From contig NC_010175.1 of the NCBI RefSeq assembly GCF_000018865.1, positions 1,116,001 through 1,180,000 of the forward strand: a stretch of DNA of 64,000 nucleotides. Direction: 5' to 3'. Each line of letters starts with the position of its first letter. Within the stretch, counting starts at the first letter, position 1. The notes under the pieces were generated by a model. That model made no database searches and was not told the DNA's origin. It saw only the letters and a list, made by a program, of their open reading frames with translations. The position numbers were made by a program, and so were the translations under genes. This DNA is from Chloroflexus aurantiacus J-10-fl. Lineage in GTDB: Bacteria; Chloroflexota; Chloroflexia; Chloroflexales; Chloroflexaceae. Shown in pieces: positions 2,331 to 57,537 of the stretch.

Positions 2331-3014
2331 TCAATGCACAATCCGGCCATCTGATACCAGTACCACCCGACCAGCCCGCCGGGCAAGATCGCTGTCGTGC
2401 GTAACCATCACAATCGTTGTGCCCTGGCCGGCCAGTTCGATGAAGAGCTGAAACACCGCCTCAGCAGTCTGCGAGTCGAGATTACCGGTTGGCTCATCGG
2501 CGACCAGGAGCGGTGGGTTATTGGCCAGAGCACGGGCAATCGCGACCCGCTGCTGCTGACCACCAGAGAGTGCCATGGGCAATTTATCGGCCTGATCGGC
2601 CAGCCCAACCCTCTCTAACAATGCCATGGCTCGCTCGCGCCGTTCGCGCAGTGTACCGATATGGCAAAAGTCCATCGGTAACATCACATTTTCCAGCGTC
2701 GTCAGAGTTGGTAACAACTGAAAGAACTGAAACACAATCCCGACCGTGCGCCCACGCCAGCTCGCCATCCGCGATTCCGGCATCTGCATCAGATCGGCGC
2801 CGGCGACTCGCACCTCGCCACTGCTCGCCCGATCAATGCCGGTGATGATATTGAGCAGCGTTGATTTGCCACTGCCCGACTTACCGACAATCGCGACGAA
2901 TTCGCCGGGGTCGATGCGCAGATCGATACCACGCAGGGCCAGATAGTCGCCGGCAGCCGTGGCGTAGGCTTTGGTTACAGCGGTGAGCGTAATTAGTGGC
3001 GTCTTCGTCTCCAT
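2331..3014 (-). CDS. ABC transporter ATP-binding protein, MacB/LolD type
   Basis: About 227 aa, the usual length for a lone LolD/MacB-type ATPase. Walker A is [11 protein letters not shown], the Q-loop is in '[17 protein letters not shown]', the signature is [15 protein letters not shown], Walker B is [12 protein letters not shown], and the H-loop is in 'VMVTHD'. The start at 3014 (METKTPLI) is chosen because the upstream residues are not family-like and would run into the permease gene. It lies between the FtsX-type permease and the HlyD adaptor on the minus strand, so it energises that permease. Such mechanotransmission transporters move peptides, lipids or antibiotics. The substrate here is unknown. 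Confidence 0.95.
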
Positions 3015-7974: not shown

Positions 7975-8730
7975 CTATACATTACCCATACCTGGTGTCA
8001 ACCACGTGCGTATCAGCAGGTATGATCGCCATAGGTGCTGTTGTGGGCGACTGGCCCGGTGACAGTGCACCGTTCCAATCGTGCCAGCACGTGCTGGATG
8101 GATTGCCGTACCCGCTCGTTATGCGCGTGTCGCAGGGTTTGGAGTGCGGCAGCTATGCTGCCGCGCCAGCCGCACTCACGATCCGGCGCGGATTGCAGCG
8201 GACTCCCGTGCCAGTACGTGACTCTGATGATGGGGATGGCTGAACGCAGGCCGGCAGCCTGCCCCACAGCGTGCTCGTGCCGGTGGTGTGTAGAGGCGGG
8301 TTCGTAGGGGCGGGTTGAGAACCCGCCCCTACGAACGGTACCTGTACCGTTCACCTGACCATCCAAGAGATGCGGTGAATGGGAATGTCTTGCATCGCGT
8401 GCAATGGAATGGATGGTTGTTCAGATGTGATCGCAGCCGCTACGCGCCCCGCTCCCACGCAGCGCTATGCCTTACCCATACCCAGGTAGTCACCTTCTTC
8501 GCTGATGAGCAGCACCTGTCTCATTGTGCGCGATCCCGGGCACTATCGCGTTGCATCGCTGTCGCGTGGGTCGCACGTCACGCATGGGCAGCGGATGGTC
8601 GCAGTGGTGGCGGCGGTAGACGGTGTATCAGACCACGGAGCAGGCTTCCAGCCTGCCCCACGTAAAGCCTGCGCCACAGGGAGCACTTGTAGCCCGGCCT
8701 AACGCAGCGTGACATGTGGGTAATGCATAG
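7975..8730. mobile_element. Repeat element E1 with CTATGCATTACCCA-type inverted ends
   Basis: Ends CTATACATTACCCA (7975-7988) and TGGGTAATGCATAG (8717-8730), inverted with one mismatch; 756 bp. The inside holds no credible gene. It is a mosaic of hairpins: a 'GCGGCAGC..GCTGCCGC'-type palindrome near 8148, the GTAGGGGCGGGTT palindrome at 8304-8332, an internal copy of the left end near 8469, and a 'GGCTTCCAGCC' motif near 8645. The flanks are halves of a GC-rich repeat (cccgctgggg on the left, ccccagcggg on the right). It occupies most of the 1.1-kb gap between recD2 and the lut operon. A non-autonomous, MITE-like element is the best reading. Confidence 0.7.
8304..8332. repeat. GTAGGGGC hairpin palindrome (variant GCGGGTT)
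   Basis: Perfect inverted repeat with arms GTAGGGGCGGGTT and AACCCGCCCCTAC and a short loop, extended by TTC/GAA outside. It is one of eight such palindromes in the window whose inner arms differ but stay self-complementary. Confidence 0.8.
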
Positions 8731-23617: not shown

Positions 23618-23919
23618 GCACGCCCTCACCCCCGGCCCCTCGCCCGCGTGCGCGGGCGAGGGGCGTTTAGATGTATTGGGGCGTCCTGATCGGACATCTG
23701 GCAGCATAGGTCATGACCGCCACCTGTTTCCCTGCTGCACGTGAACGATGCACCGCTAGACGCTGGGTAGGGGCGACGCATGCGTCGCCCCTACCACGCC
23801 GACGACTAGCCACAAGCAACTCGCCAGTGGCACATCCGGTAACGCTTCTGCACGAGGATGACACCCGAACCATGCACCTTGTTGAGCACGATTCGGTATG
23901 CGACGGTAGCCATGCCTGT
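23618..23919 (-). repeat. Dispersed repeat module B, copy 1
   Basis: About 300 bp and one of five copies (others near 35.0, 42.0, 43.2 and 45.0 kb). Order, read on its own strand: 'GGAATGTCTACCGTCGCAT'-like start, 'GTGCATTGTTCGGGTGTCAT'-like block, a GTAGGGGC palindrome (23767-23794 here), an 'AACGATGCA'-type block, and a terminal hairpin of the 'CCCCTCTCCCGCGCC' type. No coding capacity is apparent. Confidence 0.75.
23767..23794. repeat. GTAGGGGC hairpin palindrome (variant GCGACGCA)
   Basis: Perfect 28-bp palindrome with arms GTAGGGGCGACGCA and its complement. It is the centre of module B copy 1. Confidence 0.85.
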
Positions 23920-24119: not shown

Positions 24120-24597
24120 CTATGCATTACCCACATATCACGCTGCGTTAGGCTGGCTGCAAGTGCCCCCTGTGGCGGCTCCCCGTGGCGCAGGCTTCCA
24201 GCCTGCGTGCAGGCATCCTCGCCACCGCCGGCAGGTGCTGGCCGTGGCCGCTGGTGCGCAAGCACGAATCTCTTGCAACATAACCATCTACACGTAGGGG
24301 TCGCATGCATGCCTGACCGACTCGATGATCGAAACAAGCACATCCAACACCCTCGTGACCAGGATGGGTAACGGTGTACCACGCGCCGGATCGTGTGTAC
24401 GGCTGGCGCGGCAGCATGGCTGCCGCACTCCAAACCTTGCGCCACGCGCATGATGAGCGTGTAAGGCAATCCATTCAGCACGTGATAGCACGGCTGGAGC
24501 AGCGCACTGCCACCAGTCCAGTCGCCCACAACAGCACCTATGGCGATCATACCGGCTGATACGCACGTGGTTGACACCAGTTATGGGTAATGCATAG
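24120..24597. mobile_element. Repeat element E2 with CTATGCATTACCCA inverted ends
   Basis: Ends CTATGCATTACCCA (24120-24133) and its exact complement (24584-24597); 478 bp. The body is in the opposite orientation to E1, with the same 'GCGGCAGC' palindrome and 'GGCTTCCAGCC' blocks. Both flanks carry CCGCTGGG (24112-24119 and 24597-24604, sharing the terminal base region), consistent with an ~8-bp target duplication in the GC-rich repeat. No gene is inside. Confidence 0.75.
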
Positions 24598-24682: not shown

Positions 24683-24985
24683 CTATGCATTACCCACATG
24701 TCACGCTGCGTTAGGCCGGACTGCCAGCGCCCCCCGTAGCGTGGGTGGCGTGGCGTGGGCTTCCAGCCCACGTGCAGGCATCCTCTCCACCGCCGTCAGG
24801 TGCTAGCCGTGGCCGCTGGTGTGCAGGCTTCCAGCCTGCGCCACGGGCTGGTACACCGCTTCCCGTTCGTGACGTGAGACCTACGCGACAGCGTTACAAT
24901 GCGATAGTGCCCAGGATCGCGCACGACGAGATAGGCGCTGCTGATGAGCGAAGAGGTTGACAAAATAGTTATGGGTAATGCATAG
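24683..24985. mobile_element. Repeat element E3 with CTATGCATTACCCA inverted ends
   Basis: 303 bp. It has exact 14-bp inverted ends at 24683-24696 and 24972-24985. The inside is a shortened version of the E-type body ('GGCTTCCAGCC' motif, 'GTGCGCGATC'-like block). It lies 85 bp from E2 within the same interrupted tandem array. Confidence 0.72.
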
Positions 24986-34363: not shown

Positions 34364-35018
34364 CTATGCATTACCCATAACTGGTGTCAACCACGTGCGT
34401 ATCGGCTGGTATGATCACTATTGGTGCTGTTGTGAGCGACTGGCCCGGTGGCAGAGCGCCACTCCAGCCGTGCCGGCACGTGCTGGATGGATTGCCTGAC
34501 CCGCTCGTCATGCGCGTGTCGCAGGGTTTGGCGTGCGGCAGCCATACTGCCGCGCCAGCCGTACTTGCGATCCGGTGCGTGTCGCAGCGGTTACCCTGCC
34601 GCTCTCCGCACAGTGGAATCACGTTTCAGCGGGGATACTGTTACCGACCAGTATTACCCGTGACGCAGCGTTTGGAGTGCGGCAGCCATGCTGCCGCGCC
34701 AGCCGTGCTCGTGATCACGGGCGGGTGGCAGCGGTTGCTTTGCGGGCCACGAGGACGACGGGGGTGCAGCGCATATCTGGCTGGTTTGACCATCCGCGCT
34801 CTCACATTTTGACCAACACGGTACATCATCGCCGGAAACCCTGGGCAACATCGCAGGGCGTCGGTCGCGGGCGTGGCGCAGGCTTCTCGCCTGCACACCA
34901 GCGGCCACGGAGCACCTGCCGGCGGTGGAGAGGATGCCTCCACACAAGCTGGAAGCCTGCGCCACGGGGAGCGCTTGCAGTCCGGCCTGACGCAGCGCGA
35001 CATGTGGGTAATGCATAG
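34364..35018. mobile_element. Repeat element E4 with CTATGCATTACCCA inverted ends
   Basis: 655 bp with exact 14-bp inverted ends (34364-34377, 35005-35018). Two 'GGAGTGCGGCAGCC' hairpin blocks (near 34530 and 34675) and the 'GGAAGCCTGCGCCACGGGG' block lie inside. It begins 38 bp after the methyltransferase stop, within a GC-rich hairpin repeat (cgccgggggcggg on the left). Module B copy 2 starts about 20 bp from its right end. No gene is present. Confidence 0.75.
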
Positions 35019-35037
35019 CCCCGTTGGGAGCGGGGGA

Positions 35038-35346
35038 ACGTCCTCCCCTCCGGCTCCTCGCCCGCACCCGGCGCGGGCGAGGGGAATTTTGATGGATCGG
35101 GGCGTCTTAATAGGACATCTGGCAGTATAGGTCATAACCGCCACCGGTTTCCCTGATGCTGCACCTGAACGATGTACCGCTGGACGCCGGTAGGGGCACG
35201 GCATGCCGTGCCCCTACTGACGGCAAGCCACGAGCGACTCGCCAGGAGTACACACGGTAACGCTTCTGTACGAGGATGACACCCGAACAATGCACTTTGT
35301 TGAGCGGGATTTCGGTATGCGACGGTAGGCATTCCTGGCAGGCAGG
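35038..35346 (-). repeat. Dispersed repeat module B, copy 2
   Basis: Same order as copy 1, on the minus strand, with its central palindrome at 35190-35217 (arms GTAGGGGCACGGCA). The inner arm differs from copies 1 and 4, yet both arms changed together. Confidence 0.75.
35190..35217. repeat. GTAGGGGC hairpin palindrome (variant GCACGGCA)
   Basis: Perfect 28-bp palindrome at the centre of module B copy 2. Confidence 0.85.
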
Positions 35347-36537: not shown

Positions 36538-37146
36538 CTATGCATTACCCACAACTGGTGTCAACCACGTGCGTATCATCGGGTCTGATCGCCATCGGTG
36601 CTGTTGTGGACGACTGGCCCGGTGGCAGTGCGCCGCTCCAGCCGTGCCAGCACGTGCTGGATGGATTGCCTGACCCGCTCGTCATACACGTGTCGCGCGG
36701 TGTGGAGTGCGGCAGCCATGCTGCCGCGCCAGCCGCGCTTGCGATCACGTGGAGGTCGCAGCGGCTACCCCGCAGCTCTCCACACAGTGGGATCACGTGT
36801 CAGCGTGGATACCGTTGCCGACCACCATGACCCGTGTCGCGCGGTGTGGAGTGCGGCAGCCATGCTGCCGCGCCAGCCGTGCACACGATCCGGTGCGTGG
36901 CATACCGTTACCCATCCTGGTCACGAAGAAGCTGCATGTGATCGTTTCGATTATTGAGTCGGTCAGGCATGCATGCGATACCTGCGCGTAGACGTTTGGT
37001 CATACCAGGTTCGTGCCTGCGCACCAACGGCCACGGCCAGCACCTGCCGGCGGTGGAGAGGATGCCGGCACGCGGGCTGGAAGCCTGCGCCACGGGGAGC
37101 GCTTGCAGTTCAGCCTAACGTAGCGTGACATGTGGGTAATGCATAG
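36538..37146. mobile_element. Repeat element E5 with CTATGCATTACCCA inverted ends
   Basis: 609 bp with exact inverted ends (36538-36551, 37133-37146). Complementarity extends about 10 bp outward (GCTCCTCTCC on the left, GGAGAGGAGC on the right), so the element sits at the middle of a palindrome. The body contains two 'GTGGAGTGCGGCAGCC' hairpin blocks and the 'GGAAGCCTGCGCCACGGGG' block. No gene is present. Confidence 0.75.
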
Positions 37147-37273: not shown

Positions 37274-37482
37274 CTATGCAATACCCATACCCAGGTTGTC
37301 CACTTCTTCGCTCATCAGCAGCGCCTATCTCACTGTGGCGCAGACTTCCAGCCTGCGCACGAGCGGCCACAGCCAGCACCTGTCGGCGGTAGAGATGATG
37401 CCTCCACGCAGGCTGCCAGCCCGCGCCACAGGGAGCGCGTGCAGCCCGACCTGACGCAGCGCGACATGGGGGTAATGCATAG
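37274..37482. mobile_element. Repeat element E6, short, with slightly diverged ends
   Basis: 209 bp between CTATGCAATACCCA (37274) and GGGGTAATGCATAG (37469-37482). Contains only the right-hand part of the E body ('CACTTCTTCGCTCATCAGCA', 'GGCAGACTTCCAGCCTGC'-like). Confidence 0.65.
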
Positions 37483-39197: not shown

Positions 39198-40169
39198 ATG
39201 CACGTTCTGACAGGCATTCCCGCAGCTACTCCTTCCCGCTGGCTCAATGTTCTTCGCTCCGAAATCACCCTCTACTGGAAATTCAATCGGTACGACATTT
39301 CGGCCACTGTGATGCCGGGTATGCTCTTTGTTCTGGCAGCCTGGCATAGTCAGAACCCTGATTGGGCCGCCCTGCCCGGCCTGATCATCTGGGGCACCAT
39401 CTACTTCTGGCTCTACTGCACCACCTTCTGCATTTCCAACCAGTTGGCCGGCGAAGTCGAGGATCGGCTCAACAAACCCGACCGCCCACTGCCGAGTGGC
39501 CTGGTCTCGCGGCGCGGCGCTTTCGTGCGCTGGATCATTGCCATGGTGCTGTTTGCCGCAGTCGGTTGGTGGTTGGGAGTACTGGAATGGACACTGCTCT
39601 GGCAGGTGACGTTGACCCTGCACAACTTCGGTCAGTTTGCCCGTCACTACTGGTTTAAGAACCTCTCGATGGTATTTGGAGCGATTGCGCAACTGGCCGC
39701 AGCCTGGCAGATGGTACGGCCATTGACCCCAGAAGCGTGGAGCTGGCTCCTGGTACCTGCCATTACTCTGCTCTCGCATGCATCATTGCAGGACTTGCGC
39801 GATATGGAAGGTGATCGGATGAACCGCCGCCGCACACTGCCAATCGTGTTCGGCGAGTGGCCGAGTCGGGTATTTATCGCCATCGCCTTTGCGTTGCTGG
39901 CTGTGCTCACCCACGCCGCGCTGTTCGTGCCCAACGGCTTGAACGCCGGAACCTTGTTGCTCGACGGCCTGCTGGCCGGGATGTGTCTGGTGATTGCGGG
40001 TCGGGTATTGTTACTGCGCAATCCCGCTGCCGATCACGTCTCGTACATGCTCTACACCTTACTGGTATTGTCTGGTACTGGCAGCGGCAATTGTGGCATT
40101 GTAAAGAGGTCGCGCGCCATTGCGCTCCCTCACCGGACGAGGTCGATTCGGGGTGGGGCCGGTGCTTAG
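39198..40169 (+). CDS. UbiA-family prenyltransferase, probable 3'-end frameshift
   Basis: Multi-pass membrane prenyltransferase with both Asp-rich sites: 'NQLAGEVEDRLNKPDRPLPSG' (first) and 'DLRDMEGDRMNRRRTLPIVFG' (second). The family attaches isoprenoid chains to quinone, chlorophyll or haem precursors. Substrate is not clear here; quinone or pigment synthesis would suit a phototroph. Start at ATG 39198 with GGAG upstream. The frame ends in an odd hydrophilic tail (SGTGSGNCGIVKRSRAIALP). One base away, from 40072, the DNA reads LVLAAAIVAL then TAA at 40102-40104, a natural end for the last membrane helix. An extra T near 40071, real or a sequence error, would explain this. Confidence 0.82.
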   Translation: MHVLTGIPAATPSRWLNVLRSEITLYWKFNRYDISATVMPGMLFVLAAWHSQNPDWAALPGLIIWGTIYFWLYCTTFCISNQLAGEVEDRLNKPDRPLPSGLVSRRGAFVRWIIAMVLFAAVGWWLGVLEWTLLWQVTLTLHNFGQFARHYWFKNLSMVFGAIAQLAAAWQMVRPLTPEAWSWLLVPAITLLSHASLQDLRDMEGDRMNRRRTLPIVFGEWPSRVFIAIAFALLAVLTHAALFVPNGLNAGTLLLDGLLAGMCLVIAGRVLLLRNPAADHVSYMLYTLLVLSGTGSGNCGIVKRSRAIALPHRTRSIRGGAGA

Positions 40170-42032: not shown

Positions 42033-42337
42033 CTGACAGGAATGTCTACCGTCGCATACCGACATCTTGCTCAACAAGGTGCATTATTCGGGTGTCATGC
42101 TCGTACAGAAGCGTTACCGGGTGTACTCCTGACGAGTCACTCATGGCTTGCCGTCAGTAAGGGCGACGCATGCGTCGCCCCTACCAGCGCCCAGCGCTGC
42201 ATCGTTCAGGTGCAGCATCAGGGAAATCGGTGGCGGTTATGACCTATACTGCCAGATTCCTATCAGGACGCCCCGATCCATCGAAATGCCCCTCTCCCGC
42301 GCCGGGCGTAGGAGAGGGGCCGGGGGTAAGGGCGTTC
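42033..42337 (+). repeat. Dispersed repeat module B, copy 3
   Basis: Plus-strand copy. Central palindrome at 42157-42184 has arms GTAAGGGCGACGCA and TGCGTCGCCCCTAC with one mismatch. It ends in the CCCCTCTCCCGCGCC hairpin. Confidence 0.75.
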
Positions 42338-42673
42338 CCCCGCCCCCAGCGGGGGCGGGCCGGGGTGGGGGCGTGTCTGCATACGCTGGAAGCACACCCC
42401 TCCAGCACACCCATCACCTGCACACTGGGAGCGCGCGCCGGAGGCTCGCCCAGCCGAATGTCGCAACCTCAACCAGCCCACACAGCGGCGACCCACCCCA
42501 CACTGGCGACTCCCGCCCCCAGCGGGGGCGGGCCGGGGTGGGGGCGTGTCTGCATACACTGGGAACACGCGCCACCGGCGCACTCATCACCTGCACACTG
42601 GGAGCGCGCGCGCCACCGGCGCGCATGGTGCCGGTACCACTCCCTCACGCGCCAGCCATACATGTGCTCGCCG

Positions 42674-43165
42674 TTTGGAGTGCGGCAGCCATGCTGCCGC
42701 GCCAGCCGTACTTGCGATCCGGTGCGTGTCGCAGCGGTTACCCTGCCGCTCTCCGCACAGTGGAATCACGTTTCAGCGGGGATACCGTTACCGACCAGTA
42801 TTACCCGTGACGCAGCGTTTGGAGTGCGGCAGCCATGCTGCCGCGCCAGCCGTGCTCGCGATCACGGGCGGGTGGCAGCGGTTGCTTTGCGGGCCACGAG
42901 GACGACGGGGGTGCAGCGCATATCTGGCTTTTGACCATCCGCGCTCTCACATTTTGACCAACACGGTACATCATCGCCAGAAACCCTGGGCAACATCGCA
43001 GAGCGTCGGTCGCGGGCGTGGCGCAGGCTTCTCGCCTGCGCACCAACGGCCACCGCCAGCACCTGCCAGCGGTGGCGATGATGCCGGCACGCGGGCTGGA
43101 AGACCGCGCCACGGGGAACGCTTGCAGCCCAGCCTAACGCAGCGCGACATGTGGGTAATGCATAG
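42674..43165. mobile_element. Repeat element E7, left end missing
   Basis: The right end TGGGTAATGCATAG is at 43152-43165. The body, from 'TTTGGAGTGCGGCAGCC' at 42674, is very similar to that of E4 over several hundred bases, including 'GTGTCGCAGCGGTTACCC'. The first ~180 bp with the left end are absent, replaced by the 'GGGAGCGCGC' repeats. Confidence 0.65.
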
Positions 43166-43244: not shown

Positions 43245-43555
43245 CTGACAGGAATGTCTACCGTCGCATACCGACATCTCGCTCAACAAAGTGCATTGTT
43301 CGGGTGTCATCCTCGTGCAGCAACTTTACCGCGTGTACTCCTGACGAGTCGCTCATGTCTTGCCGTCAGCGTCGTAGGGGCGACGCATGCGTCGCCCCTA
43401 CCGGCGTCCAGCGCTGCATCGTTCAGGTGCAACAGCAGGGAAATCGGTGGCGGTTATGGCCTATACTGCCAGATATCCTATCAGGACACCCCAATCCATC
43501 GCAACGCCCCTCTCCCGCGCCGGGTGCGGGCGAGGGGCCGGGGGTAAGGGCGTTC
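43245..43555 (+). repeat. Dispersed repeat module B, copy 4 (uninterrupted reference copy)
   Basis: About 311 bp with a perfect GTAGGGGCGACGCA palindrome at 43374-43401 and an unbroken terminal hairpin (CTCTCCCGCGCC... GGGGCC). After it the sequence reads 'GCGTTCAGC' and 'CATACCAAAGC'. This is the empty site for the insertion of E8 into copy 5. Confidence 0.8.
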
Positions 43556-43744
43556 AGCCCATACCAAAGCGTATCTACTGCATACAATATCTACCCTTGA
43601 ATATCAAGAGGGGGAGCACGTGGTAGCGAACCAGAGGCAATCTACCCGCTTGCAACGACCGTCATAACCCGGTCCCGTCCCTCTCACCGAGAGCAAGAGG
43701 AACAGGACCGGCGGGGAGGGGGAAGGGGGAAATATCGTAACTAA

Positions 43745-44296
43745 CTACTCCAACATGCGCAGGTATGCCAGTAGATCGGCCATTTGCTCATCAGAAATAG
43801 GCATCGGCGGCATAAAACCGATACTCCCCGATCCACCGGTCCGAATCCACTCGGCCACATTAGCCTCACTCCGCTCCTTGCCGTTCGGCAACATACCTTT
43901 GTAGTCAACCCCATCCGGCAACACTGGCCCATTGACGCTAAACAGACCGGCCAGCCCCGGCCCAAGCAGCATATTCGTAGCCGTAGAATGACACCCTGCA
44001 CACGACGAAGCAAAAATCGCCTTCCCGCGATTGACATCACCCTTTGCCGAGAGTGACGTATCGGCTAATGCCGGTGGAAGGGGCATTTCTACATGCTCAG
44101 ATGAAGCAGCAGAACTTCCCGACGAACCGGCCTGACTGGCGGCAGCAGCCTGATCTGACGCAGTTACCTGGGCAGGTGAGGCTGCCGGTTCAGAAACTGG
44201 GGCCGGCGCAGGTGCTGGAGTCTGAGCAGCACTGCCGCAAGCGGCAAGCATGGCCAGCAACGTCAGTGCATAGATCCAGTAGAGTATCTGTTTCAT
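43745..44296 (-). CDS. Membrane-attached c-type cytochrome lipoprotein
   Basis: About 183 aa. Signal peptide 'MKQILYWIYALTLLAMLAAC' ends in a lipobox (LAAC), so the protein should be lipid-anchored outside the membrane. A low-complexity Ala/Pro/Ser linker (about 20-85) precedes one class I cytochrome c domain: haem motif CAGCH in 'AIFASSCAGCHSTATNMLLGPGLAGLF', and axial Met in 'GSIGFMPPMPISDEQMADLLAYL'. It probably carries electrons in respiration or photosynthesis. Start 44296 follows GAGGAG. It stands alone between repeat islands. Confidence 0.92.
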   Translation of the reverse strand: MKQILYWIYALTLLAMLAACGSAAQTPAPAPAPVSEPAASPAQVTASDQAAAASQAGSSGSSAASSEHVEMPLPPALADTSLSAKGDVNRGKAIFASSCAGCHSTATNMLLGPGLAGLFSVNGPVLPDGVDYKGMLPNGKERSEANVAEWIRTGGSGSIGFMPPMPISDEQMADLLAYLRMLE

Positions 44297-44980
44297 CAGA
44301 CGTCTCCTCACAATTGAAAAAAACTACCTGTGAATAATGAAAACCATCAGCAAGCCATGCAAGGCCTGTCAGGTGTTGATACATACCGGATATGACTAGT
44401 ATAGATGAACGATCTGAGAGAAGAGAAGATCCAAAAGCGTCAACATCGTGAACCGAACAGTTCATCTTGAGGAGACTACCGGGTAGAGATCACCATTCCA
44501 CACCTGGTTCAGAACGCACACACTTGCCATTGTCGCAGCATTGCCGGCAGTGGGCATACTTCTGGTATGCCAGCCTCAACAAGGGGCGCACAGCCGTGCG
44601 CCCCTACCGAGGTGGCAATCGGCCTCCAAACACACAATGGATAGCAGCTTGTACATCGCCATCAAAACCACACATCGGCGTGGACACCGGTCACACGCAG
44701 TGATCCCCGTGTCGCATGGCTTGGAGTGCGGTAGCCGTGCTGCCGCATCCACCGTCCTTCAGGCCCGGCGCGTGTCGCACGGTTCCATCAACACCGGGAG
44801 AACAGCACGCAGATCACACAATCAACCTATCACACCGGCCCTGAGCGACACATACGTGCGCGAACAATGCGCTCCCCACCTGCCCGTATAGATGACTCCC
44901 GCTCCCGGCGGGGGCGGGTTGGGGTGGGGGCTTGTCTGCATACGCTGGGAGCGCGCGCCGGAGGCGCGCCCACTACCTGC
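44297..44980. other. Intergenic region upstream of the cytochrome gene, with repeats
   Basis: Contains the promoter region of the cytochrome gene, a GTAGGGGC-type palindrome at 44581-44607 (inner arm GCGCAC), a 'TTGGAGTGCGGTAGCC' hairpin block near 44720 and a GC-rich CCCGCTCCC/GGGGGCGGG palindrome at about 44897-44930. No gene is apparent. Confidence 0.5.
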
Positions 44981-46094
44981 CTGACAGGAATGTCTACCGT
45001 CGCATACCGACATCTTGCTCAACAAGGTGCATTGTTCGGGTGTCATCCTCGTACAGAAGCGTTACCGCGTGTACTCCTGGCGCGTCGCTCGTGGCTTGCC
45101 GTCAGTAGGGGCACGGCTGCCGTGCCCCTACCGGCGTCCGACGCGGCATCGTTCAGGTGCAGCAGCAGGGAAATCGGTGGCGTTTATGGCCTATACTGCC
45201 AGATTCCTATCAGGACGCCCCAATCCATCGAAACGCCCCTCTCCCGCGCCTGGCTCTATGCATTACACACAACTGGTGTTAACCACATGCGTATCAGCGG
45301 GTATAACCGCTATGGGTGCTGTTGTGGGTGACTGACCCGGTGGCAGTGCGCCGCTCCAGCCGTGGTATCACGTGTTGAATGGGGTGCCTTACACGCGCAT
45401 CATGTGCGTGGCGCGCAGTTTGGAGTGCGGCAGCCATGCTGCCGCGCCAGCCGTGCTCACGATCCGGCGCGGATTGCAGCGGACACCCGTGCCGGTACGT
45501 ACCCCTGATGATGGGGATGGCTGAGGGCAGGCCGGCAGCCTGCCCCACAGCGTGCTGGTGCCGGTGGTGCGTAGGGGCGGGTTCCGTAGGGGCGGGTTGA
45601 GAACCCGCCCCTACGAACGGTGCCTGTGCCGTTCACCTGACCATCCACGGGATGCGGTGGACGGGAATATCTTGCATCGCGTGCCATGGATGGTTGTTCA
45701 GAGGTAATCGCAGCCGCTACGCTCCCCGCTCCCGCGCAGCGCTATGCCTTACCCATACCCAGGTTGTCAACCGCTTCGCTCATCAGTCGAACCTATCTCA
45801 TCGTGCGCGATCCTGGGCACTATCGCGTCACCCTGCTGTCGCGTGGGTCGTACGTCACGAACGGAAAGCGGATGATAACAGCGGAGGTAGCCGTTGGATC
45901 AGACCATGGGGAAGACGTCCAGCCTTCACACCAGCGGCCATGGCCAGCCCCTGCCGGCGGTGGCGATGATGCCTGCACGCAGGCCGGAAGCCTGCGCCAC
46001 GGGGAGCGCTGGCAGCCCGACCTAACGCAGCGCGACATGTGGGTAATGCATAGCGCGCCTGGCGCGGGAGAGGGGCCGGGGGTGAGGGCGTTCA
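44981..46094 (+). repeat. Dispersed repeat module B, copy 5, split by element E8
   Basis: The first part, 44981-45255, matches copies 3 and 4, with its palindrome at 45105-45131 (arms GTAGGGGCACGGC). It stops in the terminal hairpin and resumes at 46054 with 'CGCGCCTGGCGCGGGAG', 'GGGGCCGGGGG' and 'GCGTTCAGC', which matches the end of copy 4. Element E8 occupies 45256-46053. Confidence 0.82.
45256..46053. mobile_element. Repeat element E8, inserted in module B
   Basis: 798 bp. Ends CTATGCATTACACA (45256-45269, one change) and TGGGTAATGCATAG (46040-46053). The body resembles E1 in order and length, including the GTAGGGGCGGGTT palindrome at 45586-45614 and an internal end-like copy near 45742. 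The flank CGCGCCTGGC occurs on both sides (ending one base before the left end, starting right after the right end), consistent with target duplication. No gene is inside. Confidence 0.8.
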
Positions 46095-46249
46095 GCTCAT
46101 ACCAAAGCCTTATCTTCCGCATACGCTCGCGTATAACGTCCATCGCTGAACTACTGGACGGCATCATAATGGGCGGGTACGTCAACCCGCCCTTACGCAA
46201 ATATACTGCCGGGAAACAACTTGTGGAAAACGTCCAAACAATCACCCCG

Positions 46250-46630
46250 TCACCCTTGCCGACTGGCAAGAACTTCCCGTGGCAACGTTGTCGGATCAGG
46301 GGTTACCGTTGGCTCAGGCGCAGGACCGGTATCCGTCCAGCCCTGACTTTCGAGGGTCATCGGTACGTCGGCGATCACCATATCGTGGTGACAAACAATC
46401 TGGCACGAAAGCCGGTACTGTCCAAGCAGTCCTCGTTCACTCAGTTTGGCGTACTCAGCCGCCGTCATCTCTTCAGGCTCACCTTCGGCAAACGCCACCC
46501 GGCAGGTCGTGCAGCGGGCATAACCGCCACAACGGTGACCAATCGCGATCCCGGCCTGCTCAATCGCCAGCACCAGCCGGGTACCGGCTGCAACATCAAC
46601 CGAACGATCACCAATCGTGATCTTGGGCAT
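46250..46630 (-). CDS. [2Fe-2S] ferredoxin
   Basis: 126 aa. Adrenodoxin/plant-type fold with the cluster cysteines in 'HRCGGYARCTTCRVAF' (C-x5-C-x2-C) and the fourth in 'LSCQIVCHHDMVI'. 'MPKITIGDRSVDVAAGTRLVLAIEQAGIAIGH' is the typical start. The ~25-residue C-terminal tail (Pro/Thr-rich) is extra. A soluble one-electron carrier; the partner is unknown. Start at 46630 with GGAGG 5 nt upstream. It lies just downstream of the chemosensory cluster but 150 bp away, so it is probably independent. Confidence 0.93.
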   Translation of the reverse strand: MPKITIGDRSVDVAAGTRLVLAIEQAGIAIGHRCGGYARCTTCRVAFAEGEPEEMTAAEYAKLSERGLLGQYRLSCQIVCHHDMVIADVPMTLESQGWTDTGPAPEPTVTPDPTTLPREVLASRQG

Positions 46631-56851: not shown

Positions 56852-57537
56852 GGTTCGGGTCTCAGCAACGGTTGTCGGTTCAATCGTATTATAGCCTATC
56901 GGTGTTAGATCGTGCTGCTTCGTATGATTGCGATGTGAATGCATCAGGGCGCCTCAGCGCAGGCTTCTATTCTCCCCTCTTCCGTGCGGCAGGTTCAGGG
57001 ACAGACAGCAACTATGAGCGAACTCAACCACCACTCCATCAGAAAGATCCAGCGCAGGCTTCTGGTCTCCCCTCTCTCGCATGCGCGCTATGCGTTACCC
57101 ATTACTCGAATACTGCATAGCTCGCGTGCGGGAGCGGGGGTGATGGCCGACGAGTCAGCGGGTTAAACCCTGCCTCAATTCGTGAAAGCCCCTCCGGGGC
57201 TGGCCTGCCGGCGGGGAGTGGGGCCAGACGCTCGTGGATAGCCCCGCAGGGGTGTGCAGGTCGTGAGGCAGGGCTTCAGTCCGCACGACCGCAGGGCTGG
57301 CCTGCCGACGAGGAGCAGGGCGCTGCCGAACCCATGACTGCCTGGTGTGCGTGACGAACGATGCGCCGTGTCCAGCACCATGTGCTATAAGGGGGCATAC
57401 CGGCTTCTATGTGGCATGTGGGTAATGCATAGGCGTGCGCGGGAGAGGGTCCGGGGGAGAGGACGTTCAACGCATCACCAGACCCTCTACTCGTAGAGTA
57501 CTGACCTGATCTTCGCAATGCACGCCACGCACGCCGG
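56852..57537. other. Intergenic region with end-like fragments of the E element family
   Basis: The first 40 bp hold the selD promoter region. At 57088-57120 a 33-bp miniature consists of CTATGCGTTACCCA and a reduced right end (…TGCATAG). A lone right end TGGGTAATGCATAG lies at 57419-57432. Between them (57180-57310) are 'CCCCTCCGGGGCTGGCCTGCCG'-like GC hairpins repeated twice. No gene. Confidence 0.55.

Follow-up and report, generated by a model that had tools for sequence, protein, structure and literature searches.

The insertion and its empty sites

The region analysed (the window) is a 64,000-nucleotide stretch of the Chloroflexus aurantiacus J-10-fl genome, positions 1,116,001–1,180,000 of the single 5,258,541-bp contig that was searched. 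It carries genes at 43745, 46250 and 46781, whose products were read as putative cytochrome-, ferredoxin- and CheR-like proteins, respectively, and a further gene at 40166. The interval 44312–46249 contains a 798-bp segment, E8, which interrupts a copy of a repeat named module B in the initial annotation and called the host repeat here (Table 1). E8 holds three overlapping open reading frames and no recognisable gene; these frames gave no Pfam match, and an Rfam search of 44800–46300 returned nothing at gathering scores.

The boundaries that the initial annotation had proposed for E8 proved correct. Its 14-bp inverted ends, CTATGCATTACACA (45256–45269) and CTATGCATTACCCA (46040–46053, minus strand), are alike at 13 of 14 positions, with one mismatch, and the flank CGCGCCTGGC occurs on both sides as claimed, with a single extra T (45255) separating the left copy from the element. 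The duplication can be read either as 10 bp with one additional base or as 11 bp with 10 matches. E8 splits a GC-rich palindrome with arms of 20 nt that are 95% complementary. Once the insert and one duplicate were removed, copy 5 of the host repeat aligned without gaps to copy 4 across the junction, continuing into GTTCAGC and CATACCAAAGC, and it also ran through the junction with copy 3.

Six well-matched copies of the host repeat were found among the places scored, of which five are unsplit, one of them with a 3-base gap at the junction, and one is split by E8. Alignment through the junction extends to copies at 35036 and 23620 of the window and to one outside it, at genome position 1,079,877. 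As far as the scored places show, all six lie within about 1.08–1.16 Mb of the genome and constitute a regional repeat. Adjoining copy 4, an orphan right end (module D, see below) of a decayed element was observed at 43034–43165.

Syntenic stretches were obtained from five of seven congeners. The genes at 43745, 46250 and 46781 keep the same order in all five, and the 40166 gene is next to them in four, being not found in the stretch from G003. Neither E8, the host repeat nor the 44312–46249 interval had a blastn match in the stretches from these five relatives at E ≤ 1e-3, and weaker pieces reached at most 33 bp. The original proposal, that E8 is a mobile insertion for which an empty site in the window serves as control, is thus borne out by five unsplit copies of the host repeat and by five relatives that keep the neighbouring genes without a match to E8.

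Table 1. Features of the E8 locus and related copies (window positions unless a stretch is named).
Feature	Position	Strand	Remarks
E8, fused form (modules A-B-C-D)	45256–46053	+	very probably non-autonomous and IS50-type; inverted ends, direct repeat, recurrent module order
E8 left end	45256–45274	+	19 bp, CTATGCATTACACACAACT
E8 right end	46035–46053	−	19 bp, CTATGCATTACCCACATGT
Direct repeat, left copy	45245–45254	none	CGCGCCTGGC
Direct repeat, right copy	46054–46063	none	CGCGCCTGGC
GC-rich palindrome split by E8 (target)	45235–46076		arms 45235–45254 and 46057–46076
Module A	45256–45471	+	outer left end, common to the 440–490-bp class
Module B of E8	45472–45741	+	middle; distinct from the host repeat
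Inner 312-bp element	45742–46053	+	own left end, CTATGCCTTACCCA
Module C	45742–45921	+	part of the inner element
Module D	45922–46053	+	part of the inner element
Host repeat copy 4, empty-site part	43420–43585	+	internal control
Further host repeat copy	42203–42345
Further host repeat copy	35036–35171
Further host repeat copy	23620–23747
Further host repeat copy	L049:4578–4701
Element with these ends (1 of 7)	7975–8730		another fused A-B-C-D copy
Element with these ends (2 of 7)	24120–24597
Element with these ends (3 of 7)	24683–24985
Element with these ends (4 of 7)	34364–35018
Element with these ends (5 of 7)	36538–37146
Element with these ends (6 of 7)	37274–37482
Element with these ends (7 of 7)	57088–57432

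The extent given for E8 stands, but it is not one simple element, as had been supposed, since it contains another left end at 45742. Judged from its sequence, E8 is a composite in which a 312-bp element follows the left portion of a second one. Modules A and D around a different middle constitute a 440–490-bp class, and C and D, with a left end of their own, form a class of roughly 310 bp. The window and the 78 stretches described below contain the order A-B-C-D at 17 places, 13 of which have both ends, and the flanks differ among copies. Repeats around fused copies agree at 9/9 positions at L098, 9/10 at L052, 10/11 at E8 and 10/11 at L078, the latter in G-rich sequence; at most of the 13 two-ended copies, no good duplication was seen. 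This arrangement is most simply explained by insertion of a C-D element into a palindrome within an A-B element, followed by joint movement of the outer left end and the inner right end, the order of these events being inferred.

Family size, target sites and end arrays

In the window, the 14-mer end with up to three mismatches gave 22 matches versus 3.5 expected, a number reached in 0/100 shuffles. Genome-wide, allowing for one mismatch at most, CTATGCATTACCCA was counted 303 times (150 on the plus and 153 on the minus strand; reversed control, 0), compared with 0–1 times in each of seven congeners (controls, 0–3). A 16-base version of the end was found in 9 of 41 genomes of the taxonomic family, own genome included, with 9 as the highest other count. 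The 78 stretches that were fetched cover, with the window, 264 of the 303 ends. Among these, 97 adjacent inward-facing pairs recur, as the initial annotation had anticipated from a search with the ends, and 96 of them span 200–1600 bp. These 96 pairs, which include the inner parts of fused elements, fall into sequence classes of 37, 22, 10, 5 and 3 members plus 19 singletons, and 34 aligned members of the main class deviate by 7.1–11.5% from their consensus.

The 303 ends do not equal 150 elements because tandem arrays inflate the end count. At L059:3192–6298, L091:3035–6864 and L077:8056–10069, head-to-tail copies of the left part of an element, including its end, precede one right end, with units of 239 bp × 13 (93% matches, no indels), about 374 bp × 10 and 384 bp × 5 (units at least 98.7% alike), respectively. 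In genome coordinates, the arrays occupy about 2,112–2,115, 3,002–3,004 and 3,832–3,836 kb. Each array offers many candidate transposase-binding ends. The consulted portion of PMC6749651 counts 76 satellites for C. aurantiacus, a number of which have long repeats, and the present arrays may be among them.

Target duplications and dyad symmetry were assessed on 92 elements, derived from the 96 rows by dropping 17 inner rows and adding 13 fused outer boundaries; 5 of 18 fused copies were left out because they had no recognisable left end. Exact 9-bp direct repeats flank 10 of the 92 elements versus 0.58 for shuffled flank pairs, and 9-bp repeats with at most one mismatch flank 17 versus 1.29 (maximum of 5 in 300 shuffles). 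Any repeat of 8–11 bp with at most one mismatch was retained by only 34 of the 92 elements, versus 3.9 after shuffling (maximum, 9). The commonest duplication length in the short elements is 9 bp, and some copies have 10–11 bp.

In the rebuilt sites, dyad symmetry peaks at the centre of the duplication. The fraction of positions that pair is 0.449, versus 0.287 (sd 0.016) when the letters of each site were shuffled, and sites with at least 7/9 pairs number 21 of 92 versus 1.6 expected (maximum, 5). Shuffling of flank partners left the dyad score unchanged (0.446) because the targets are of one C-rich-to-G-rich type. Hairpin energy, computed for 81 elements (15 rows dropped by motif, the true element L080 missing and two inner rows included), was −15.9 at the sites, −9.1 at random positions and −15.8 for shuffled flank pairs. 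The preference for centres of GC-rich palindromes, C-rich on the left and G-rich on the right, is therefore real, and as flank-shuffled scores equal the real ones, recognition of a hairpin is inseparable from preference for a symmetric CCC...GGG sequence.

Related ends are also present in G371, G411 and G067. In 20 stretches from the related genera represented by G099, G194, G414, G417 and G001, no transposase match was found near the ends, and a second inward end within 450 bp was seen only at L172 and L182. These two pairs, L172:1813–1981 and L182:104–553 (G099 and G417, from two other genera), are low in copy number and consist of related ends that face inward, and L172 includes a 31-bp match (94%) to the right end of E8. 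Separately, the hairpin cores of E8 at 45418–45447 and 45583–45615 are, among the candidates scored, also dispersed as matches of ~23–58 bp in other genomes of the genus and taxonomic family, and element interiors therefore seem to consist of hairpin repeats that predate the E8 family.

A candidate parent with a Tn5-type transposase gene

E8 itself is geneless, as first described, but the accompanying statement that it matches no known IS family did not hold. The longer, transposase-carrying copy whose existence had been suggested was found by the genome-wide search at L043:3024–4507. It has the same ends, spans 1,484 bp and carries a Tn5-type transposase gene cut by a stop. The gene comprises a 353-codon frame, an in-frame TAG and then the continuation of the same protein. 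The frame matched PF14706 Tnp_DNA_bind (6.9e-21), DDE_Tnp_1 (1.6e-5) and the IS4-family profile NF033590 (1e-88), as well as the protein of the solved Tn5 transposase structure (1.8e-41, residues 4–350 alike by sequence). A 9-bp duplication, GTTCCCCCC, flanks the element. The only other long pair, L031:3037–4201 (1,165 bp), is a decayed relative that is 78–79% alike. The transposase search of the own genome used the IS4-type profile NF033590, the scope being this family; above its cut-off, no IS4-type transposase was found beyond the L043 and L031 copies, which disposes of a second source of this type, and two additional weak pieces were returned, one belonging to the L031 copy.

The IS50 subgroup of the IS4 family is described, in the consulted portion of De Palmenaer et al. 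2008 (PMC2266710), by a length of 1350–1550 bp, ends of the form CW------Y---CA-A--W-, a YREK motif, spaced Y-(2)-R-(3)-E-(6)-K in the DDE transposase, and a direct repeat of 8–9 bp. The L043 element falls within this length, has a 9-bp repeat and retains Y, R and E, with N in place of K; the K is kept in the L031 relic and in all six relatives tested. All seven signature positions are present in 150 of 192 element ends, a count biased by the fact that five of the seven lie inside the search motif. The two positions outside the 14-base motif (A16 and W19) are both present in 161 of 192 ends, versus a background of 5,512 of 63,980 window positions. The in-frame TAG after 353 codons, in place of a single uninterrupted transposase frame, makes the L043 element a broken member of the subgroup. 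The outer end of Tn5 agrees with the E8-family end at positions 1 and 2 and in the surroundings of TTA and CACA.

The correspondence of ends is directional. The left end of the L043 element matches the right end of E8 over 25 bp (92%), and its right end matches the left ends of the short elements over 31–32 bp (78% for E8, 87% for others), versus only 19–20 bp in the opposite pairing. Beyond the ends, no long similarity was found between the interiors of the short elements and the L043 element.

Among 400 genomes of the phylum, own genome included, seven had transposase matches at 1e-60 or better. An Anaerolineae MAG contains an intact relative, L114, of 1,474 bp with a single uninterrupted 455-aa transposase gene that is 58% identical to that of L043 in the best segment. 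Its inverted ends are alike at 18 of 19 bases, and it lies within a GC palindrome, its duplication not being clear; PADLOC returned nothing for its transposase. Ends were inspected at 9 of the 14 matched places, and several terminate in TTACCCA-type repeats, such as CTGATTCTTACCCACATTT (L121) and CTATACATTACCCACAATT (the relic L120).

Origin of E8 and of its family

With 798 bp and no transposase gene, E8 is short and geneless, it shares its ends with an IS of the same genome (L043 and L031), and its family comprises multiple copies with target duplications (96 pairs; 34 of 92 with an 8–11-bp repeat), as in a miniature inverted-repeat transposable element (MITE), for which 798 bp is long. We therefore consider it very probable that E8 is a fused, non-autonomous, MITE-like element of the IS4 family (IS50/Tn5 subgroup), presumably mobilised by a Tn5-type transposase acting in trans. 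The L043 element is the likely parent, and the enzyme that moved the family was probably Tn5-like and is now represented in the genome by broken copies only.

Cut-and-paste chemistry is known for the IS4 family and presumably applies to E8. E8 would supply just the roughly 19-bp ends bound by a Tn5-type transposase, and the enzyme, made elsewhere, would pair both ends and excise the element. Pasting at a staggered break, as a rule 9 bp wide, would generate the direct repeat, the preferred target being the dyad centre of a GC-rich palindrome. After insertion of one short element into another, the left end of the outer and the right end of the inner element could then move as a unit. Movement in trans would have depended on the L043 transposase, and present mobility would be lost or low. 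As the only near-complete IS4-type transposase gene is broken, the family may have been left immobile here; alternatively, the enzyme that moved it may have disappeared from the genome.

Movement by another transposase family, lost or outside the IS4-type search, with an IS50-like element that merely shares the ends, is a very improbable alternative. It would accommodate the broken gene in a single near-complete copy, with only the ends in common with the short elements, and a search of the own genome limited to one profile; against it stand the directional end match of 25 and 31–32 bp, the occurrence of these ends on an intact relative from a different class, and the 9-bp duplications on the IS and the short elements alike. 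We give the same slight chance to REP/REPIN-like repeats, or repeats spread by recombination, that multiplied through gene conversion or RAYT-type enzymes: the separately dispersed hairpin cores, and the tandem arrays as a sign of amplification by other means too, are in keeping with such an origin, which is disfavoured by the defined ends in inward pairs, the target duplications and the DDE transposase that these ends enclose. That E8 was ancestral at the repeat and copy 4 is a deletion product, to which the odd base at the left junction and the decayed repeats around copies might point, is the least probable account and was rejected, given five unsplit host repeat copies versus one split, the direct repeat around E8, and the interval in five relatives without a match to E8 or the host repeat.

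The IS50-type reading thus places E8 within a known kind, a MITE with IS50-type ends. The L043 element shares size, ends, Y-R-E and the 9-bp repeat with the IS50/Tn5 subgroup and departs from it in the stop and the N for K of its gene, while E8 lacks a transposase altogether and its family targets GC-rich palindrome centres, with some repeats of 10–11 bp. From Tn5/IS50 itself, the family differs in target preference and family size. According to the consulted portion of the review PMC10969869, IS50L also bears a nonsense mutation, ERIC copies number 30–711, and bacterial MITEs are, like the E8 family, short and geneless, with inverted ends, direct repeats, high copy number and mutual insertion; the fused 798-bp form and the left-end arrays set the E8 family apart. 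The same portion names no IS4-type MITE ("IS4" has 0 occurrences). No earlier description of the family appears in the consulted portions of PMC3150298, PMC2266710, PMC10969869, PMC6749651 and PMC5771137. What is unusual is the palindrome-centre preference, the fused form and the left-end tandem arrays.

The 303 ends, compared with near zero in sister species, denote a lineage-specific burst, and the transposase gene of the candidate parent is broken. Tentatively, and with odds somewhat against so detailed a scenario, a Chloroflexota Tn5-like lineage could have come to recognise the tips of GC-rich hairpins (terminator-like palindromes), its geneless derivatives multiplying at tolerated sites, fusing and growing end arrays before the sole transposase gene broke. 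For annotation, the family explains some of the intergenic repeats in this genome, inside which gene calls should be made with caution. More broadly, it constitutes a natural test both of palindromic target choice by Tn5-type enzymes and of the fusion of short elements into new mobile units.
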